Below, piece after piece: positions 1,638-18,725 of a DNA stretch of 37,992 nt (positions are counted from its first letter, which is position 1; every line of letters begins with the position of its first letter). Origin of the DNA: Acidobacteriota bacterium. GTDB taxonomy: Bacteria; Acidobacteriota; Vicinamibacteria; Vicinamibacterales; JAFNAJ01. Below the pieces are notes generated by a model that worked only from the letters and a program-made list of their open reading frames with translations, was not told where the DNA came from and did no database searches. The position numbers were made by a program, and so were the translations under genes. The stretch covers positions 1 to 37,992 of the forward strand of contig JAHDVP010000048.1 in NCBI GenBank assembly GCA_023384575.1, in the 5' to 3' direction.

Positions 1638-2951
1638 ATGTCGATCCAGTACCTGAAGAAGGCCACGAAGACGCCCGAGACGGAGACTGCCGGTGCGCAG
1701 CAGATTGTCGAGGCGATGCTCGCGGAGATTGACGCGCGAGGCGAGCAGGCGGTGCGCGAATATGCACTGAAACTCGACAAGTGGTCAGGCGAGATCGCCG
1801 TGACCCCGCAGGAGGTCGAGCGACGCACCCGGGACATTCCTGACTCGATCAAGCGGGATATCGAATTCGCAACCGCGCAGGTGCGGCGGTTCGCGATGGC
1901 GCAGAAGACATCGCTCACCGAATTCAGCACCGAGTTGCAACCCGGGCTGACGGCGGGGCAGCGCGTGATTCCGGTGAACGTAGCGGGCTGTTATGTTCCC
2001 ACAGGGCGCTATGCCCACATCGCCTCGGCGTACATGAGCATTGCCACGGCGAAGGCTGCGGGCGTGCCGACAGTGATCGCGTGCTCCACGCCCTACCGCG
2101 GCGAGGGCATTCATCCGCACGTCCTGTACGCGATGAAGGCCGCAGGTGCGGACGTGATTCTGACCTTGGGCGGCGTTCAGGCGATTGCGACTCTCGCCTA
2201 TGGCCTGTTCACGGGCAAGCCGGCCGACATCATCGTCGGGCCGGGTAACAAGTACGTGGCCGAGGCCAAGCGCAGGCTGTTCGGAAAGGTCGGCATCGAC
2301 GTGTTCGCCGGTCCGTCCGAGGTTGCGGTCATCGCCGACGGTTCGGCTGATCCGGAACTTGTCGCGTCCGATCTCGTGGGCCAGGCCGAGCACGGTCACG
2401 AATCGCCGGCGTGGCTGTTCACGACTTCGCGCGGGCTCGCCGACACGGTGATGAAGAGAGTGCCCGAGTTGATCGAACTCCTGCCGCCCACCGCGCGCAA
2501 TTCTGCCGACGCAGCGTGGCGCTCGTATGGCGAGGTGATCCTGTGCGACACCCGCGAGGAGATCGCCGAGATCTCGGATCGCTATGCGTCCGAGCATCTC
2601 GAGGTTCATGCCCGCGACCTCGAATGGTGGCTTGGGCGATTGACCTGCTACGGGTCCCTCTTTCTTGGCGAGGAGACCACGGTGGCCTTCGGAGACAAGG
2701 TGTCCGGTCCGAATCACGTCCTGCCTACCAAGGGTGCGGCCCGGTACTCCGGGGGGCTGTCGGTGCACAAGTTCATGAAGACGCTCACCTGGCAGCGCGT
2801 TACTCGCGAGGCGACCCGCCAGATCGGGCAGGTTACGGCGCGGATCTCACGACTCGAGGGCATGGAAGCCCACGCGAGAACCGCCGACGACCGGCTCGGC
2901 AAGTACTTCCCTCGGGAGGCCTTCGACAAGGGCGAACCGGTCACAACCTGA
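1638..2951 (+). CDS. hpsN: HisD-family dehydrogenase, sulfopropanediol 3-dehydrogenase (HpsN) type
   Basis: A 437-residue member of the histidinol dehydrogenase family. The metal and catalytic residues align with HisD: Gln249 and His252 (GQAEHGHE), the Glu319-His320 pair (SEHLEVH), Asp353 (GDKVSGPNH) and His412 (EGMEAH). The flanking sequence is not that of biosynthetic HisD but resembles HpsN, which oxidises (R)-2,3-dihydroxypropane-1-sulfonate (DHPS) by two NAD-dependent steps to (R)-sulfolactate. This comparison is from memory. It leads an operon with an SDR (12-base gap) and a zinc alcohol dehydrogenase, the order reported for hpsNOP in Cupriavidus. No other his gene is nearby, which argues against histidine synthesis. 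The ATG is preceded by a GAGGGG ribosome site. A different polyol substrate remains possible. Confidence 0.75.
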
Positions 2952-2963
2952 ACGGAGAGGGTA

Positions 2964-3731
2964 ATGGGCATCGAGGGCTTGTTCCGGCTCGACGGCCGGC
3001 GTGCGTTGGTCACCGGGGGCAACTCCGGAATCGGGGAGGCCATGGCACGGGCCCTCGGCCTGGCCGGTGCGCGGATCACGCTGGCGGCCCGCCGCCAGCC
3101 TGACCTGCGGGAAGCGGCAGCACGCCTGTCCGGCGATGGCATAGACGCCGACTGGATCGCTTGTGACCTGAGTGAGGTACAGACGGCGCGCGGTGTCGCG
3201 GCGGAAATACTCGAGCGCCACGGCGCAATCGACATCCTCGTGAACGCCGCGGGAGTCAATCTCCGCCAGCCGTTCGAGCAGGTGACGCTGGAAGCGTGGC
3301 AACTCCAGATCGCGCTTCACCTCGGGGCACCATTCTTTCTCACGCAGGCGCTCGCACCGATGATGCGCGAGCGCGGATGGGGGCGCATCATCAATATCGC
3401 GTCGCTGCAGTCGCAGCGGGCGTTTCCGGACAGCGCGCCATACGGTGCGGCCAAGGGAGGCGTCGTTCAGCTCACACGGGCCATCGCCGAGGCCTGGTCG
3501 AGATACGGCATCACGTGCAATGCAATCGGCCCCGGCTTTTTCCACACCCCGTTGACGGCGGCCATCTTCGCCGATCCGGCGCGCGCGCAACGCAATGCCG
3601 CCAGCACGGCAGCCAACCGCAATGGCAATCTGCCGGATCTGTACGGCGCGACCGTCTTCCTGGCGAGCGAAGCTTCGGCCTACGTGACCGGCCAGACGCT
3701 TTACGTCGATGGCGGCTTCACTGCGCGCTGA
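2964..3731 (+). CDS. Short-chain dehydrogenase/reductase (possible HpsO/HpsP-type diol dehydrogenase)
   Basis: A 255-residue classical SDR: cofactor motif TGGNSGIG (residues 17-24), NAAG (94-97), and catalytic Ser147, Tyr160 and Lys164 in YGAAK. A strong GGAGAGGG ribosome site precedes the ATG. It lies between the HpsN-type gene and a zinc alcohol dehydrogenase. In known DHPS clusters two 2-dehydrogenases next to hpsN interconvert DHPS enantiomers through the 2-keto compound, and this gene and the next could fill those roles. The fold is certain; the substrate is inferred only from neighbours. Confidence 0.8.
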
Positions 3732-16834: not shown

Positions 16835-17832
16835 GCACGCCATCGCTGGACGCCGATTTTACCGGCACAAACGTTCAGACTGCGCAGGGCCCCGGCGGAC
16901 CAGTGCCGCGCCTGTACGGCGAGGCGCTGCTCGGGCTCGCGCGTGACGACCCGCGAATTGTCTGCCTGGTCGCAGATCTTTCTCCTGCGACCGAGACGGA
17001 CCTGTTCAGGGACAGCCTGCCCGCTCGATTCTTCAATCTCGGGATTGCCGAGGCGAACATGATCGGCGTGGCCGGGGGGCTGGCGCGCTGCGGTCGCCGG
17101 CCATGGGTTCACACATTCGGGGTCTTCGCCACGCGCCGCTGTTATGACCAGGTTGCGATGCAGGTCGCCTACCCGCGGCTCGATGTGAAGATCGTCGGAT
17201 TCCTCCCCGGCCTCACGACGCTGCTCGGCGTCAGCCACCAGGCCATCGACGACGTCGCATTGATGAGAGCGCTTCCGAACATGACGATTCTCGAGCCCGG
17301 GAGCGCCGATGGGATCGGAGAGTGCCTGCGCGAGGCAAATGCGATCGGCGGCCCCGTCTATCTGAGGATGCGCCGGCTCGATCCGGGCGAGGACGGCTCA
17401 CCGTTACCCGTTGTCTCCACCGCAGGAGCGCTCTCCGTAATTCGTGAGGGTTCGGGCCCGGTGGTTTTCGCCTCGGGCATGATGGTTCGAACTGCCCTGG
17501 ATGCAGCGGAACGAATCGCCGCGCAGGGTGTTTCAACGCGGGTGATCGACGTACGGCGAATCAAGCCGCTACCCGCCGAGCCGATTGTCGAGGCTGCGCG
17601 GCAGGCGGGTGCCGTGGTCGTCGCCGAGAATCATTCGATCGTTGGCGGCCTCGGCTCTGCCATTGCGGAAGTACTGATGGAAGCGGGTGTTCGCTGTGCG
17701 TTCGAGCGGATCGGGGTCCGAGACACGTTTGCCGAGGGCGGTTCCACGGCCTACCTGTTCGATCGCTACGGCCTGTCGGAAGAGGCGGTTGCGGCAGCCG
17801 TCCGGAGTGTTGCACGGAGGGCGGCCCGATGA
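16831..17832 (+). CDS. Transketolase C-terminal (pyrimidine-binding) subunit
   Basis: 333 residues with the ThDP pyrimidine domain (catalytic Glu74 in NLGIAEANM; GVSHQAIDDVALMRALPNM at about 133-151) and the C-terminal transketolase domain. It overlaps the N-terminal subunit gene by four bases (ATGA) and the next dehydrogenase gene by four bases. Together with the upstream subunit it makes one active enzyme. The HQAIDD segment is standard for this branch, so the altered LSASH in the partner is the main substrate-site clue. Confidence 0.9.
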   Translation: MSTPSLDADFTGTNVQTAQGPGGPVPRLYGEALLGLARDDPRIVCLVADLSPATETDLFRDSLPARFFNLGIAEANMIGVAGGLARCGRRPWVHTFGVFATRRCYDQVAMQVAYPRLDVKIVGFLPGLTTLLGVSHQAIDDVALMRALPNMTILEPGSADGIGECLREANAIGGPVYLRMRRLDPGEDGSPLPVVSTAGALSVIREGSGPVVFASGMMVRTALDAAERIAAQGVSTRVIDVRRIKPLPAEPIVEAARQAGAVVVAENHSIVGGLGSAIAEVLMEAGVRCAFERIGVRDTFAEGGSTAYLFDRYGLSEEAVAAAVRSVARRAAR

Positions 17833-18725
17833 ACGACCGAGTCGATACGATCGCGTTCATCGGGCTGGGAACAATGGGCGCGCCTATGGCTCGGAACCTG
17901 GTTCGTGCCGGCTTTCGCTTGCGGGTTTACGACGTGGTCCCTTCAGCCGCCGCAGCGTTCGCGGGTGAGGCACACGTCGCGGACAGTCCGGCCGACGCTG
18001 CAAGCGGCGCAGATGTGGTGATAACGATGTTGCCGACCGGACGCGAGGTGGCAGCGGCGCTGTTCGGACCCGGTGCCGCGTGCGCGACGCTGCGCACACG
18101 AGGGCTGGTGGTCGACATGAGCACGATCGCGCATGCTGATTGCGTGACGCACGGCGAAAGGCTGCGCAGTGCGGGTTTTCGCGCAGTCGATGCGCCAGTG
18201 GGTCGCTCCCCTCAGCACGCCATCGAAGGAAAGCTTCTGGTAATGGCCGGCGGTGACCCCGCGGATGTCAACGAGTTGCGCACTGTCTTCGATGCGATCG
18301 GAGACACCGTCCATCACGTCGGGCCTTACGGCAGCGGCATCCGGATCAAGCTGATCAACAACTACCTCTCCATGGTGAACATGGTGATCGCGGCCGAAGG
18401 GCTGACCTTCGCTGCCAAGGCGGGAATTCGTCGTGACATTGCCTTGTCGATCTTTGCCGAAACGCCGGCCGGTCGCGGGCAGATGTTCACCAACTACCCG
18501 AGAAAAGTACTCGCTGGCGATCTGAAGCCAGACTTCCCGTTGTCGATGGGGCTCAAGGACATCACATTGGCATTGGGGTTTGGCGCCGAGGTCGGGGCGC
18601 CGCTCTTCCTGGGCGCAGCCTCACGCGAGTTGTTCGCGTTGGCCAAGCCGTTCGGTCGAGAGCGGGACGACTGTACCGCAATGCTCCTTCTGCTCGAAGA
18701 GATCGCGCACGCTCGCGCAGTTTGA
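17829..18725 (+). CDS. Beta-hydroxyacid dehydrogenase family, sulfolactaldehyde reductase (YihU) type
   Basis: 298 residues, the same length as E. coli YihU. The NAD site is FIGLGTMGAPMARNL (10-24). Where ordinary 3-hydroxyisobutyrate dehydrogenases have PVSGG, this has PVGR with Arg126; the catalytic region is KLINNYLS with Lys174, Asn177 and Ser181, and Lys243 lies in GLKDI. Aligned from memory to YihU (Arg123, Lys171, Asn174, Ser178, Lys240) the offset is a constant +3, so these residues, including those I recall as lining the sulfonate pocket, are conserved. The likely reaction is interconversion of sulfolactaldehyde and 2,3-dihydroxypropane-1-sulfonate, which fits the HpsN-type gene in the same proposed regulon. 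It is the last gene of the TRAP/transketolase operon. Another small aldehyde acid is the alternative. Confidence 0.7.
   Translation: MNDRVDTIAFIGLGTMGAPMARNLVRAGFRLRVYDVVPSAAAAFAGEAHVADSPADAASGADVVITMLPTGREVAAALFGPGAACATLRTRGLVVDMSTIAHADCVTHGERLRSAGFRAVDAPVGRSPQHAIEGKLLVMAGGDPADVNELRTVFDAIGDTVHHVGPYGSGIRIKLINNYLSMVNMVIAAEGLTFAAKAGIRRDIALSIFAETPAGRGQMFTNYPRKVLAGDLKPDFPLSMGLKDITLALGFGAEVGAPLFLGAASRELFALAKPFGRERDDCTAMLLLLEEIAHARAV

Follow-up and report, generated by a model that had tools for sequence, protein, structure and literature searches.

Which genes carry the degradation of 2,3-dihydroxypropane-1-sulfonate (DHPS) further where the gene of its dehydrogenase, hpsN, has no sulfolyase gene beside it? 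DHPS is derived from plants and algae. This organosulfur compound is abundant worldwide (PMC11131964), and the neighbours of HpsN determine the way in which its carbon and sulfur re-enter the cycle. A sulfolyase partner is often lacking in the neighbourhood: of 272 HpsN sequences, 104 have a sulfolyase close to hpsN, and a genome-wide BLAST for the same set raised the numbers to 125 with SuyB, 112 with CuyA and 66 with Xsc plus ComDE (PMC11382572). The stretch of DNA considered here (contig JAHDVP010000048.1, filed under Acidobacteriota, 37,992 nucleotides, called the window below) poses this question at positions 1638 to 18725, where a known DHPS locus is joined by a recurrent, apparently undescribed module. 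The module consists of a fused E1 protein dependent on thiamine diphosphate (ThDP), a protein of the vicinal oxygen chelate (VOC)/glyoxalase fold and usually a lipoyl-bearing E2, plus a YihU-type dehydrogenase. We propose a two-part DHPS regulon, in which hps catabolism is combined with an E1-VOC-(E2)-YihU-type module that shortens a C3 sulfonate to C2, with sulfolactaldehyde as its probable substrate, a reading whose chance falls a little short of even. Tied as it is to hpsNOP, to the YihU-type enzyme and once to xsc, the module supplies named candidate genes for an unassigned C3-to-C2 step.

The genes named in a first-pass annotation of this DNA, which had proposed an undescribed C3-organosulfonate pathway, were all found within 1638-18725 and in the order given there. 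The first part of the locus consists of dehydrogenases of the HisD superfamily, the short-chain (SDR) and the medium-chain (MDR) type, a regulator and a tripartite ATP-independent periplasmic (TRAP) transporter:

1638-2951, plus strand: hpsN, (R)-DHPS 3-dehydrogenase, HisD superfamily (772 bits to 8v35; 77% identical to HpsN of Cupriavidus pinatubonensis)
2964-3731, plus strand: hpsO, SDR-type DHPS dehydrogenase (62% to C. pinatubonensis HpsO; 54% to the hpsN-linked SDR of Leisingera)
3748-4746, plus strand: hpsP, zinc MDR-type DHPS dehydrogenase (63% to the C. pinatubonensis gene at the HpsP position; ATG at 3748)
4768-5793, minus strand: LacI-family regulator, HpsR-like (46% to the LacI of the Leisingera hps cluster; 39% to the LacI adjoining hpsN in C. 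pinatubonensis)
6055-7224, plus strand: TRAP solute-binding protein DctP1 (49% to the hpsN-linked DctP of Leisingera)
12954-14108, plus strand: TRAP solute-binding protein DctP2 (47% to the hpsN-linked DctP of Leisingera)
14190-14708, plus strand: TRAP small permease DctQ (PF04290)
14721-15989, plus strand: TRAP large permease DctM (PF06808; 51% to the hpsN-linked DctM of Leisingera)

Judged by its sequence, the HisD-like protein is HpsN, and this identity is firm. In a tree made by a quick search, 22 HpsN-type sequences stand on one side of a branch with 97% support (Shimodaira-Hasegawa-like approximate likelihood ratio test, SH-aLRT), and HisD together with three HisD-like paralogues or proteins falls outside; the window protein groups with known HpsN, and the first of the two sequence-based refutations named in the first-pass annotation thus failed. 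The motif GRY[A/S]H with His126 tells HpsN from HisD, and Lys353 also touches the sulfonate (PMC11382572). The window protein carries GRYAH (His127) and keeps the zinc-binding and catalytic positions Gln248, His251, Glu318, His319, Asp352 and His411, as well as Lys353, in the alignment. All ten active-site residues checked are kept, whereas E. coli HisD differs at two; it carries Leu at the position of the sulfonate-contacting His and Tyr at that of Lys353. Tree and active-site residues together rule out an ordinary HisD.

Next to hpsN, and together with the transporter and the regulator, stand hpsO and hpsP, confirming the hpsNOP-like order of an SDR and an MDR gene noticed before. HpsN is specific for the R enantiomer of DHPS, and HpsO and HpsP of C. 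pinatubonensis are described as 2-dehydrogenases that interconvert the enantiomers (PMC11382572); in Ruegeria both were shown to produce sulfolactaldehyde (PMC11131964). In this part of the locus, whose biology is already described, the TRAP transporter imports DHPS, HpsO and HpsP oxidise it, and HpsN, controlled by the HpsR-like LacI protein, converts (R)-DHPS into (R)-sulfolactate.

Two known systems are close to this part. The hpsRNOUP-suyAB cluster of C. pinatubonensis resembles the window in HpsN (77%), HpsO (62%), HpsP (63%) and its LacI regulator, but the window has a TRAP instead of a major facilitator superfamily transporter, lacks suyAB and adds the E1-VOC-E2, YihU-type and transketolase set. 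TRAP-hpsNOP-comDE clusters of Roseobacteraceae (a Leisingera plasmid, L105) share LacI, DctPQM and hpsNOP with the window (DctP 47-49%, DctM 51%, HpsN 55% identical); the Leisingera cluster carries comDE, whereas the window has the E1-VOC-E2 module instead and no comDE. Since DHPS clusters that combine HpsNOP, a transporter and a LacI regulator have been described before (PMC11382572; PMC11131964), only the added E1-VOC-E2 module is a candidate for novelty. The C3-organosulfonate assignment is borne out, by the identities of HpsN (77%) and of HpsO and HpsP (62-63%) and by the YihU-type motifs discussed below, and the claim of an undescribed pathway may hold for the module but is not supported for the remainder. 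Genes for SuyA, SuyB, Xsc, CuyA, ComD and ComE were not found in the window (tblastn, 1e-10), as the first-pass annotation had said of SuyAB, Xsc and CuyA.

The remaining genes of the locus are the following, among which the VOC gene had been absent from the earlier listing:

7252-8049, plus strand: a second SDR, SDR2 (a relative at least 50% identical in 14 of the 41 loci defined below)
8190-9512, minus strand: E2 of AcoC type (Pfam lipoyl, E3-binding and alpha/beta hydrolase domains)
9523-10026, minus strand: VOC/glyoxalase-fold protein between E1 and E2 (Pfam Glyoxalase)
10028-12214, minus strand: fused alpha-beta ThDP-dependent E1 (E1_dh, Transket_pyr and Transketolase_C domains; GDG...NN and QHS stretches kept)
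15986-16834 (first ATG 15992), plus strand: split transketolase, N part (240 bits to the N part of 6yak; PF00456)
16831-17832, plus strand: split transketolase, C part (PF02779, PF02780)
17829-18725, plus strand: YihU-type protein, like sulfolactaldehyde reductase/DHPS dehydrogenase (best PDB match YihU, 6sm7, 205 bits)

The module recurs. A scan of genome contigs for E1, seeded by six peptide patterns and not a census, gave 73 loci. Gene counts refer to set thresholds, which are low in coverage (at least 28% for HpsP, at least 15% for E2) because loci are cut at contig ends, and which left a few weaker hits uncounted in loci with E1 below 59% identity to the window; this boundary was picked after seeing the table, and L043 (59%) lies outside the clade described below. 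Among the 41 loci with E1 at least 59% identical, VOC is found in 38, a YihU-type gene in 33, E2 in 28, LacI in 26, an HpsO-like gene in 20, HpsN in 17, HpsP in 16, SDR2 in 14 and the transketolase in 2. The 32 loci with E1 below 59% have E2 in 10 cases, and none of them has VOC, a YihU-type gene, HpsN, LacI, an HpsO-like gene, HpsP, SDR2 or the transketolase. All 17 hpsN loci carry both VOC and a YihU-type gene, and VOC lies 3' of E1, on the same strand and within 150 bp, in 34 of its 38 occurrences. In the E1 tree (L064, L078 and L079 left out) all 33 YihU-linked sequences and that of the window fall into one clade with 96% local support. This clade covers 40 loci, 7 without a YihU-type gene and 2 without VOC in the stretch covered; 3 of the 28 E1 genomes (L043/G021, L048/G022, L063/G023) are outside it.

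Several loci join the module directly to sulfonate genes. In L044, L046 and L047 the genes hpsN-hpsO-hpsP-E1-VOC-E2 are consecutive on one strand, and in L013 likewise with a single ATP-binding cassette (ABC) ATPase gene separating hpsP from E1. L023 (Nitratireductor indicus) has an operon-like run E1-VOC-YihU-DctP-E2-xsc-pta on one strand, with 45 bp between E2 and xsc; its Xsc scores 989 (cut-off 676) and its Pta 357 (cut-off 311). In L046 suyAB lies about 1 kb past E2, beyond one gene on the opposite strand, and in L025 comDE is found on the opposite strand about 8 kb past E1. Neither SauS, SoeA, CuyA nor HpsU was found beside E1 at a coverage of at least 60%.

It is rather unlikely that the module acts on something else, such as pyruvate or a co-substrate of diol or acetoin-like type, and adjoins hps because both serve growth on mixed plant or algal compounds. 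Such a role would agree with the wider fused-E1 clusters without recognised sulfonate genes, two of which have semialdehyde dehydrogenase genes, and with acetoin dehydrogenase as the nearest named E2 family. The gathering of all 33 YihU-linked E1s in a single clade argues against it, tempered by the 7 loci there without a YihU-type gene, as do the sulfonate-type partners (PVGR proteins, hpsN, xsc, comDE, suyAB) and the contiguity of the module with hpsNOP in several genomes.

Among solved structures the best relative of the YihU-type protein by sequence is YihU (205 bits; next 138), and NCBIfam ranks sulfolactaldehyde reductase first, at 261.6 bits and below the curated cut-off of 348. PVGR and KLINNY are kept when the protein is aligned with E. 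coli YihU, and the PVGR and KLINNYxS motifs noted before are thus real; GarR, GlxR and YgbJ carry PVSGG where YihU-type proteins carry PVGR. We take the PVGR and KxxNNY residues to be those that bind the sulfonate in YihU. PVGR and K..NN are present in all 33 E1-linked YihU-type proteins, a set from which one weak extra hit (L028, 74 bits) was excluded. In a tree with one YihU and three other references, and with long end branches, a branch with 98% support separates the YihU-type proteins together with YihU from GarR, GlxR and YgbJ; the place of E. coli YihU within the group is unsupported, and no member is more than 45% identical to it. The second sequence-based refutation named in the first-pass annotation, a clustering with tartronate semialdehyde reductases, thus failed as well, and a function as such a reductase was rejected.

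What the complex of E1 and E2 might do is suggested by acetoin dehydrogenase. There, ThDP adds to the ketone and the bond to the neighbouring carbinol is broken; the acyl part passes to lipoyl-E2 and the aldehyde is released. The window module is like AcoABC in combining a ThDP-dependent E1 with a lipoyl E2 that has an alpha/beta hydrolase domain, but differs in its fused alpha and beta parts of E1, in the VOC gene between E1 and E2, in the sulfonate context and in an E2 below the family cut-off (acetoin dehydrogenase E2 is its nearest NCBIfam, 248.4 bits, cut-off 307). E2 has the lipoyl motif ETDK and, in the hydrolase domain, GHSFG, GRADE and VGH, presumably the motifs of the catalytic triad. 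The putative metal ligands of VOC (H20 or H21, E80, H103, E151) are identical in all 39 sequences, window included. As a separate observation, the wider fused-E1 family is found on plasmids within other catabolic clusters (L101-L104), some of which carry genes for an SDR, E2, dihydrolipoyl dehydrogenase and semialdehyde dehydrogenase.

Sulfolactaldehyde matches the acetoin pattern, with H for one methyl, so that the aldehyde would be sulfoacetaldehyde and the acyl part formyl. In the proposed sequence the YihU-type enzyme (or HpsO/HpsP) would convert DHPS into sulfolactaldehyde, E1-bound ThDP would add to its carbonyl and break the neighbouring C-C bond, the one-carbon fragment would exit via lipoyl-E2 as formyl-CoA or formate, and the released sulfoacetaldehyde would pass to Xsc. 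The hydroxyaldehyde may be a substrate of VOC, acting as an isomerase or epimerase. We infer every reaction of the module and the direction of the YihU-type enzyme from observed gene identities, the conserved association, the conserved residues and the one operon-like run with xsc and pta. That this amounts to an additional aerobic route of DHPS mineralisation, in which a dedicated ThDP/lipoyl complex would cleave sulfolactaldehyde oxidatively to sulfoacetaldehyde and formyl-CoA or formate before Xsc frees sulfite, is possible but doubtful. Either enantiomer of DHPS could be used, because the stereocentre would be lost, and since HpsN is R-specific the route could serve the other enantiomer. 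If true, it would by-pass sulfolactate, sulfopyruvate and ComDE, and acetoin-dehydrogenase-type chemistry would extend to sulfonates. A search of the open-access literature, which most subscription papers lie outside, gave no paper that connects either DHPS or HpsN to a complex of lipoyl or acetoin type.

Genome counts of HpsN and Xsc also speak for the proposed model. HpsN (at least 55% identical) is present in 23 of the 28 E1 genomes. An Xsc that passes the curated cut-off was found in 21 of 23 E1 genomes and in none of 14 control genomes; this Xsc count covers 23 of the 28 and omits G017, G020, G021, G022 and G024, which have no HpsN at that level. CuyA (at least 90%) is found in 2 of 16 genomes and ComE above cut-off in 2 of 16, the number covered for both. 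Azospirillum oleiclasticum (G007) has HpsN, E1, VOC, the YihU-type gene, the transketolase and Xsc, and searches of its genome for a SuyB orthologue, for CuyA and for ComE above cut-off gave nothing. It is weaker as a model case because there is no E2 beside its E1. By eye, CobT-like genes adjoin xsc in six of the Xsc neighbourhoods (L142, L144, L145, L146, L148, L149), some with a CobS-like gene.

The Xsc neighbourhoods also bear on a second use of the complex, as a sulfopyruvate dehydrogenase: sulfolactate would be oxidised to sulfopyruvate and this decarboxylated by E1-E2 to sulfoacetyl-CoA, from which SauS would give sulfoacetaldehyde for Xsc. E1s of this fold act on 2-oxoacids, to judge by their family names, 4 of 11 xsc neighbourhoods contain a SauS-like gene (G009, G014, G016, G019; that of G019 confirmed, 747 for a cut-off of 600), and ComE is scarce, as said above. 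Against this stand the constant partner, which is a YihU-type enzyme, and the L023 run, which has xsc and pta and no SauS-like gene. We consider this use unlikely. Cleavage of sulfolactaldehyde would need no SauS, consistent with L023.

A number of observations weigh against a module that shortens DHPS. An E2 is missing beside E1 in 13 of the 41 loci, including the Azospirillum locus L035, some on short contigs, so that a gene for the lipoyl step does not always lie close by. Nor are the loci independent of one another: the 17 with hpsN include 8 from Achromobacter, 2 from one Candidimonas bin and the sister of the window. Where the YihU-linked E1s differ from the others, the exchanges are for the most part between hydrophobic or small residues (at His689 most others carry Arg), and the comparison gave no obvious sulfonate-binding residue. 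Linkage to xsc beside E1 is seen in one of 73 loci, and comDE in L025 is about 7 kb from the end of the YihU-type gene. The Xsc frequency of 21 of 23 has no matched baseline from HpsN genomes without the module, and the two genomes without Xsc are that of the window (G000) and a sister draft of 2.7 Mb (G015). Xsc also serves users of taurine and isethionate. True SuyB (at least 66%) is present in 15 of the 28 genomes, many of which hence need no second route; SuyAB makes pyruvate, leaving room for a dedicated pyruvate dehydrogenase. The SauS-like genes near xsc would fit sulfoacetyl-CoA too.

The split transketolase occurs in only 2 of the 73 E1 loci (L035 and L069) and is therefore an add-on to the module; as its core it was rejected. 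It invites comparison with the sulfo-transketolase (sulfo-TK) pathway, whose SqwGH is a split ThDP transketolase acting on sulfo-sugars (PMC12890257) and which resembles the window in having a two-part transketolase beside sulfonate genes. The corresponding alternative, that a sulfo-ketose donates its ketol unit and leaves sulfolactaldehyde or sulfoacetaldehyde, of which the remaining genes only dispose, is very improbable. The pair in the window is indeed transketolase-like, and four bases of its C part are shared with the YihU-type gene. The rarity of the pair among E1 loci speaks against this alternative, as does the fact that the sulfo-TK pathway is reported from strict anaerobes only (PMC12890257). 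General scans of the window proteins, with no dedicated search, recognised no counterpart of SqvD or SqwI, no sulfoquinovose or sulfoerythrose isomerase and no glycosidase. The larger sulfo-sugar offered earlier as a substrate likewise finds no recognised gene in the window, none having been specifically searched for. We treat the transketolase as accessory and any role as inferred. The statement of the first-pass annotation that the E1, E2 and transketolase parts belong to no known DHPS pathway accordingly stands for E1 and E2, for which none was found in print, and is qualified for the transketolase by the precedent of SqwGH.

That both parts of the locus form one regulon, as had been proposed, is plausible from operator-like sequences of LacI type. 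They lie at three promoters and are echoed in the sister locus L069 of a Lautropia draft genome:

1562-1573, no strand: operator-like site upstream of hpsN (1 mismatch to GAAACCGGTTTC; the L069 counterpart lies 65 bp upstream of hpsN)
5780-5791, no strand: operator-like site at the lacI start (1 mismatch to GAAACCGGTTTC; counterpart in L069)
12485-12496, no strand: perfect palindrome in the divergent E1/dctP2 promoter region (0 mismatches to GAAACCGGTTTC; the L069 counterpart lies 281 bp upstream of E1)

A fourth GAAACCGGTTTC-like site, at 6060, falls within the beginning of dctP1. The three promoter sites (hpsN, lacI/dctP1, E1/dctP2) all recur in L069, which has a further one inside E1, and C. 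pinatubonensis has a similar palindrome with 2 mismatches about 97 bp before hpsN (L100:6232). The count within the window is statistically weak: four sites at up to 2 mismatches compare with a shuffle mean of 1.07, four were reached in 5 of 100 shuffles, and the motif was itself derived from one of the four sites.

We note that the assignment of the contig to its genome (G000, 5.89 Mb) may be wrong. Both halves of the window have a lower guanine-plus-cytosine content (0.66) than G000 (0.665-0.715). By tetranucleotide correlation all pieces of the window are closer to Lautropia sp. SCN 70-15 than to G000, and 14 of 14 other stretches of G000 are closer to G000; by tetranucleotide distance one of these stretches (L124) is also marginally nearer to Lautropia, whose mean includes L069 itself. 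The cluster proteins are 87-99% identical to those of L069. Within the order, HpsN (E at most 1e-130) is found in one of 162 genomes, its own, and E1 (1e-100) in 6 of 162, the best others being 64% and 43% identical. A misbinned contig or a recent transfer of the cluster is possible, and because both are, nothing is inferred from absences in G000. An early argument that the genome of the window lacks SuyAB and Xsc was withdrawn for this reason. The best SuyB match in G000, whose claim to the contig is in doubt, is 37% identical, and other searches there for sulfolyase routes gave nothing convincing. A UxaA-type pair (L080) was rejected as SuyAB of G000, being 37% identical to true SuyB and standing, by eye, beside genes like those for 2-keto-3-deoxy-6-phosphogluconate aldolase and 2-keto-3-deoxygluconate kinase.

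Further genes lie downstream of the YihU-type gene. At 19007-21685 (plus strand) are genes for a DsrE-like protein, a TusA-like protein, a flavoprotein nearest to type III sulfide:quinone reductase (307 bits, cut-off 525) and a DUF1641-like protein whose match falls just below its cut-off; this sulfur-handling set might process released sulfur. A FocA-like formate/nitrite transporter (220 bits, FocA cut-off 290) is encoded at 22350-23279 (minus strand). Formate is a product in the preferred model of sulfolactaldehyde cleavage, though this gene is on the opposite strand. No FocA-like, sulfide:quinone reductase, TusA or DsrE gene was found adjoining the other E1 loci. The region 24130-32541 contains molybdenum hydroxylase genes nearest to those of 4-hydroxybenzoyl-CoA reductase, below its cut-offs, together with maturation genes of XdhC and YqeB type and a gene of the benzoate-CoA ligase family. 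Past this aromatic-acid-like set, at 32568-36000, are ABC transporter genes, by eye of the branched-chain amino acid type.

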